Below, piece by piece: positions 50,973 to 51,081 of a stretch of 51,081 bases of DNA (position 1 is its first letter; each line of letters opens with the position of its first letter). A program made the position numbers and the translations under genes. Location: positions 4,527-55,607 of the forward strand of contig JAAUZD010000027.1 in NCBI GenBank assembly GCA_014804785.1. Reading direction: 5' to 3'. The stretch comes from Lachnospiraceae bacterium (GTDB lineage Bacteria > Bacillota > Clostridia > Lachnospirales > Lachnospiraceae). Below the pieces are notes generated by a model, which had not been told where the DNA came from, did not search any database, and saw only the letters and a program-made list of their open reading frames with translations.

Positions 50973-51081
50973 ATGGATAAAGCGTACAATCTGTTAGCAA
51001 GCAAGCAAGCAAGCAAGCAAGCAAGCAAGCAAGCAAGCAAGCAAGCAAGCAAGCAAGCAAGCAAGCAAGCAAGCAAGCAAG
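50973..51081 (+). CDS. 5' end of a gene with a GCAA repeat tract (truncated by window end)
   Basis: The ATG at 50973 is preceded by GGAAAGGGG at about 10 bases and a candidate promoter further up. The frame reads MDKAYNLL, then enters the GCAA repeat, translating as repeated ASKQ until the window ends. Nothing is known of the rest of the protein. In the present repeat number the frame stays open to the window edge. A repeat of four bases early in a coding region changes frame when units are gained or lost, so this looks like a phase-variable gene. The start is plausible, but the gene body is unseen. Confidence 0.5.
   Translation, partial: MDKAYNLLASKQASKQASKQASKQASKQASKQASKQ
50997..51081 (+). 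repeat. Tetranucleotide tandem repeat (GCAA), about 21 units
   Basis: The last 85 bases are an uninterrupted GCAA tract with no variant units. The true length is unknown because it reaches the window end, and assemblies often break in such tracts. Confidence 0.97.

Follow-up and report, generated by a model that had tools for sequence, protein, structure and literature searches.

The tetranucleotide tract at the 3' end of the window (the whole 51,081-nucleotide stretch of Lachnospiraceae DNA analysed here) is likely to be part of a leader-attenuator switch, in which the tract would lie in a short leader ORF and not in the controlled gene. Through its repeat number, the tract would probably cause random ON-OFF switching of downstream genes, which often encode surface proteins. 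Assignment of the window copy to such a switch draws on its conserved upstream block and on relatives from the same genus. By sequence and statistics, the window contains the tract, a P1-like promoter motif, a ribosome site, an ATG and an open leader frame, and the relatives contain a strong hairpin with a T run (T2) and frame-dependent stops.

The closest known counterpart is pil1 of S. gallolyticus, where a leader peptide varies in length with its GCAGA repeats. Expression there is high when the leader stop falls within the hairpin, past it or shortly ahead of it, and a stop 28 nt or more ahead of the hairpin gives a mostly low population; removal of the terminator or of the leader start supported the mechanism genetically, and chloramphenicol abolished the expression difference (excerpts of PMC3894217).

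A GCAA tract in an open leader frame at the contig end

The window tract is a perfect (AGCA)21.5 run on the forward strand at 50996-51081 (Tandem Repeats Finder: period 4, 21.5 copies, 100% matches), in agreement with the uninterrupted run of about 21 GCAA units given by the initial annotation. A (GCAA)5 pattern scan of the 3.97-Mb assembly matched this tract only, and the backwards pattern gave 0 matches. The final base of contig C27 (55607) is still inside the tract, and 21.5 copies is a lower bound because the contig stops there. The ribosome-binding site AAAGGGG (50956-50962, forward strand) precedes the ATG at 50973, from which translation gives a leader ORF, MDKAYNLL(ASKQ)n (50973-51081, forward strand), that is open across the whole tract and off the contig end. 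The good ribosome site and the frame open at the seen repeat number, both previously proposed, were thus recovered. The single candidate promoter of that proposal is promoter-like sequence indeed, but resolves into two elements by motif score, both on the forward strand. P1 (TGGACT-17-TAAAAT, 50875-50903) lies 5' of the leader ribosome site, and P2 (TTGCAA-16-TACAAT, 50963-50990) overlaps the leader start codon, with its expected start site at the tract boundary. By sequence, the window therefore has a head of the pil1 type, with P1 followed by AAAGGGG and the ATG of the leader ORF, and a repeat of the pil1 type, with a unit of 4, not a multiple of 3, inside an open leader frame.

Further elements surround this head on the forward strand. 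A hairpin with a T run (50773-50803), identified by sequence and folding, probably ends the transcript of the upstream ORF (49428-50732), and a small 5' leader hairpin lies at 50914-50936 (fold of 50910-50940, -8.3 kcal/mol). A sequence search of 37 genomes delimited a genus-conserved block 5' of the tract (50824-50999). Within it, a motif scan located the imperfect palindrome GACTATCCGTTTGGCGAGTGGAC (50857-50879), which resembles an operator and overlaps the -35 element of P1. The motif occurs in 8/37 genus genomes, at 10 places in total with one or two copies each (one match for the reversed control), and these eight are the same genomes that carry the upstream block. It may serve as an operator and is possibly an autoregulatory site. 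Rfam searches of the window region and of six relative loci gave no family, and the upstream block had no match among phages.

Elsewhere in the window, 47058-47960 encodes a HipA-like protein (HipA_C, E 5.5e-7, slightly below the curated cut-off), followed by two small ORFs without a Pfam match (48616-48828 and 48829-49185), and a 37-bp tandem repeat of 2.6 copies is present at 6830-6924.

Same-genus relatives place a terminator between tract and gene

The upstream block was found, whole or in part, in 8 of the 37 genus genomes at E<=0.001, the genome of the window included, with an identity of 69-86% (the self match and one 27-nt fragment excepted); some of the copies are partial. Tract and flanks are complete in three copies, L125 (n=28), L128 (n=18) and L129 (n=17). 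Among the incomplete ones, L126 stops in the tract, L127 and L131 start at it, and L130 and L133 keep the P1/operator part alone. The tract is lost from L132 (L132/L147, G036:C8), a second block copy in the same genome, where a tract remnant is followed by other coding DNA; no LAL gene was seen in the DNA downstream of L132/L147.

After each complete tract, a small hairpin is followed by T2 and then by a gene for an LAL/LuxR-type regulator. An intrinsic terminator thus lies between tract and gene in 3/3 complete same-genus copies, its core beginning at +59 to +60 after the tract; the window ends before that place. Stops in the three frames fall at +6/+94/+122 in L125, +6/+94/+53 in L128 and +6/+130/+155 in L129. 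Since every frame is closed by +155, the regulator is not read in a frame opened by the tract, and the downstream gene has its own start behind the terminator. We therefore rejected, for these three relatives, a long gene frame that includes the tract. The initial annotation had proposed a long frame opened by the tract and had itself named early stops in all three frames as the refuting outcome, which is what these relatives have. Of its phase-variable gene, the comparison supports phase variation by a tract after a start codon, but the tract most likely acts on a leader and not on the gene's frame.

In all three copies, the position of the leader stop relative to T2 depends on the frame, a feature that lies beyond the window's end. 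At the assembled repeat numbers the leader peptides are 86 aa in L125 (stop +122), 50 aa in L128 (stop +53) and 34 aa in L129 (stop +6), so that L125 and L128 are predicted to be ON and L129 OFF. Pfam assigns GerE and TPR_MalT domains to the LAL regulator of L145, and in the two loci read further, L145 and L146, the regulator is followed by a giant surface protein, of 2432 or 1940 aa. The G036 contig stops inside the LAL region, and the LAL gene of L125/L149 has an in-frame stop after 328 codons.

We also looked for the continuation of the window tract. None was visible at the 113 other contig ends of the assembly (400 bases taken per end, the first 95 of each read by eye), and a search of the genome with the relatives' downstream DNA gave no continuation of the tract. 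Searches of this genome with the first 420 aa of the relatives' LAL protein, where an empty result carries little weight, and with their post-tract motif found no match, and the downstream gene may therefore differ here. Many contigs in the public scan start or stop inside GCAA tracts, which suggests that short-read assemblies break inside them.

The leader layout recurs across Bacillota loci

Scanning one genome per species for (GCAA)9 gave at least 115 stretches. A pattern with a -35 element before the tract matched 16/392 genomes of the order and 2/391 of the class, the reversed pattern giving 0, and a separate scan of one family matched 7/48; these are undercounts, because the window genome itself, with its hexamer TTGCAA, is unmatched. 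From 43 hand-listed loci 38 were analysed, so that the choice was partly made by hand. Those left out were L113 and L122 (short tails), L024 and L026 (tract in a gene frame) and L097 (no terminator), with T2 scores of -7.7 for L024, -10.6 for L026 and 0 for L097. The 38 loci are Bacillota by title or kinship (L018 has no phylum in its title), and some Bacillota loci with a tract lie outside the hand list, eight of which were checked afterwards. Shuffle expectations in all locus statistics ignore phylogeny.

The leader layout recurs across the 38 loci, often ahead of secreted proteins. All 38 have a T2 of -10 kcal/mol or better, against 34% of shuffles, with a mean of -26.5 kcal/mol (shuffles -7.1), and in 23/38 the tract end carries a hairpin scoring -4 or better (18% of shuffles). 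T2 alone is unspecific, as T2-like hairpins are also borne by 35/61 other loci of the (GCAA)9 scan, among the matches listed; no T2 was found in L097, where the tract is present, or in the Riflebacteria locus L028. P1-type motifs reach a score of at least 9 in 39 of 54 hand-listed heads (12.6 in shuffles) and of at least 11 in 13 of the 54 (0.1 expected). A ribosome site and start open into the tract are present at 37/81 P2-type loci against 9.5 expected (maximum 19 in 50 shuffles), and the frame is open into the tract for 43/48 ribosome site/start pairs. With hand-picked gene starts, T2 ends no more than 48 nt before the gene in 14/35 loci, and those 14 genes would have to be reached by readthrough, because this distance is too short for another promoter.

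Some frame has a stop within 10 nt past the tract in 32/38 loci (17.5 expected, P about 5e-7). One frame reaches T2 and another stops well short of it in 37/38 loci (29.6 expected, P = 7e-4; L176 failed) under first limits of 9 and 15 nt, which were set after the stops were seen. Under limits from the pil1 paper (OFF at 28 nt, ON at 4-10 nt), again chosen after the fact, one frame is at T2 and another at least 28 nt short of it in 35-36/38 loci (22-24 expected, P 2e-6 to 1e-5). With near-homologues removed, the count is 29-30/32 (18-20 expected, P 3e-5 to 1e-4). The T2 cores of L019, L094, L160 and L173 had been set by hand in the first test; undoing these four boundaries gave 33-34/38 (22-23 expected, P 3e-5 to 1e-4). 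The eight loci outside the 38 (L015, L056, L064, L105, L180, L181, L188 and L189) also fit, 8/8; four are close kin of tested loci, three (L015, L064 and L105) have no such kinship, and in L056 the tract may belong to an in-frame gene. The long frame meets the start codon of the next gene by overlap in L052, L165 and L168, and ends just before it in L163. With the repeat number of each assembly, and under limits likewise set after the stops were seen, 31 loci divide into 13 predicted to be ON and 18 predicted to be OFF.

Pfam searches with nine downstream proteins gave domains for the L145 regulator and six others, and no match for two. The six are S-layer, LRR, Fn3-associated, Glug and Calx-beta surface proteins and one chemotaxis-receptor-like protein; Pfam names among the downstream proteins of other loci are LRR_5, SLH, Glug and Calx-beta.

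An inverted-repeat/MITE or SD-sequestering role for the flanks was considered and dropped. Head and tail of the same locus pair only slightly better than swapped ones (-20.0 vs -18.3 kcal/mol, 31 loci; 28/5000 permutations equally good), a weak advantage to which relatedness could contribute.

Several further loci were recorded in passing. Strong terminator-like hairpins follow the tract in L034 (Mesocricetibacter), L030 (a proteobacterium), L073 (a Marinilabiliaceae MAG) and L023 (an alphaproteobacterial MAG), and the leader switch may thus extend beyond Bacillota. The betaproteobacterial loci L079, L080, L083, L084, L096, L116 and L121 have a similar head before the tract, with an ATG, then TTGAC.TTTC..., then ACAAT or AATAAT and TTT, and this head looks as if it were a copied cassette. 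GCAA tracts also occur at ORF ends in L114 (3725-3784, reverse-strand count) and L118 (6396-6431). The L118 ORF is a type I restriction specificity subunit (Methylase_S) and the L114 head is similar; in both, a P2-like motif stands directly before the tract although the region looks coding.

Proposed mechanism of the switch

Transcription from P1 would give an mRNA with the leader ORF, MDKAYNLL followed by ASKQ repeats, which a ribosome would translate through the tract. Slippage by single 4-base units would change the reading frame past the tract. In the OFF state, the frame would stop right after the tract, about 50 nt before T2, so that T2 would form and transcription would end ahead of the gene. 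In the ON state, either of the other frames would stop just before, inside or beyond T2, which then could not form, and the downstream operon would be transcribed. In genus relatives, the operon so controlled would comprise the LAL/LuxR-type regulator and, in the two loci read further, the giant surface protein. We infer slippage in cells, leader translation, antitermination and the same design past 51081 from this layout. If the window has the relatives' tail, repeat numbers divisible by 3 would be the OFF state.

Alternative readings and the P2 motif

In classical translational phase variation, the tract would lie in the N-terminus of the controlled gene, and slippage would open and close that gene's own frame. 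Long ORFs do run through the same tract elsewhere, in a Streptococcaceae MAG (L013), Chelonobacter (L022), Faecalibacterium (L024) and the betaproteobacterial L096 and L121, and in L026 an acyltransferase (Acyl_transf_3) has a frame that extends without a stop back into the tract, but at n=19 the upstream start is out of that frame. For the window this reading is unlikely, given that the three genus relatives with the same head have all frames closed by +155 and a gene with its own start behind a terminator. A neutral microsatellite or an assembly artefact without a regulatory role is highly improbable: the contig does end inside the tract, yet other assemblies of the genus have the same tract and flanks within contigs that reach 491,607 bases, and the signals around the tract are conserved too.

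The pil1 model has no counterpart to the P2-like motif in the leader start, and this motif counts against the switch. Its expected start site is at the first repeat units, and a P2 transcript would lack the leader start. P2 might be the working promoter of a 5'-UTR or small-RNA element that leaves the leader ORF unused, with tract length tuning expression or a GCAA-repeat RNA ending at the post-tract hairpin. The motif is frequent: scores of at least 9 were found for 54/103 heads retrieved by the tract alone, among the matches listed (7.2 in shuffles), and for 81/131 in the whole set (9.7 in shuffles), where the count is biased upward since part of the set was fetched by the -35 pattern. Its -10 element lies 3-6 nt from the tract in 44/53 heads scoring at least 10, among the matches listed. 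But the ribosome site, start codon, open leader frame and P1 are conserved as well, T2 should always end the transcript if there is no translation, and P2 in the window is modest (TTGCAA, spacing 16); we consider a UTR or small-RNA element improbable as the whole explanation.

P2 may nevertheless act on top of the leader-attenuator switch. According to record titles, P2-like heads include Proteobacteria, Synergistaceae and Riflebacteria, and in L024 the ribosome site has shifted into the P2 spacer with the P2 motif retained. P2 strength follows tract length in a weak trend (14/31, 20/40 and 20/32 with rising n, among the matches listed). We tentatively propose, as a possibility that we hold rather doubtful, that GCAA tracts in Bacillota, Proteobacteria and other phyla carry a built-in P2 promoter that starts at the tract boundary, and that its firing keeps the tract unstable or makes a repeat RNA; the role in instability is a guess. 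If true, P2 and the leader switch would form a two-layer contingency module with P2 as a transcription-driven mutation-rate element, of which we found no description in the open-access literature searched.

Comparison with known systems and implications

To our knowledge, a pil1-type switch is known from one streptococcal species only, and what is most likely new here is pil1-type logic with another repeat unit in Clostridia. Our search, confined to one open-paper collection, found no paper on a pil1-type repeat-leader switch in Clostridia, and the terms 'leader peptide', 'attenuation' and 'gallolyticus' do not occur in a 2025 phase-variation review. With the pil1/pil3 attenuator, as excerpts of Danne et al. 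2014 (PMC3894217) describe it, the present layout shares the promoter, ribosome site, ATG, repeat in the leader ORF, intrinsic terminator and surface operon (the last two here from relatives), a unit that is not a multiple of 3, and, in relatives again, a leader stop either far before the terminator or at, inside or beyond it. Unlike the system in those excerpts, the unit here is GCAA and not GCAGA, a P2-like motif lies over the leader start, a small hairpin and stop cluster marks the tract end in most loci, and the predicted targets, known here from their sequences, comprise LAL regulators as well as secreted proteins of many kinds (PMC3894217).

Unlike in the lav autotransporter of Haemophilus, a terminator stands between the leader and the gene, as seen in relatives. 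The lav tract reportedly belongs to the controlled gene. The AGAT tract of Moraxella catarrhalis uspA2 is said to have a 5'-UTR role, and we know of no leader ORF/terminator switch there. Shared features are the GCAA(n) unit and ON-OFF by tract length in lav (excerpts of PMC9022572), and a tetranucleotide tract near the 5' end of a surface-gene transcript in uspA2 (excerpts of PMC7302503). The invertible promoters of Clostridioides difficile likewise provide phase variation of regulators in clostridia but, as far as the excerpts of PMC11868660 go, by site-specific inversion and not by repeat slippage.

If the layout holds, slippage-driven attenuation would be a general route to surface variation in several families of Clostridia, and such switches would stand beside the better-known invertible promoters in these bacteria. 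They have probably been overlooked because their targets lie behind short leaders and assemblies often break in the tract. In long-read data, the ON or OFF state would be readable from the repeat number modulo 3.
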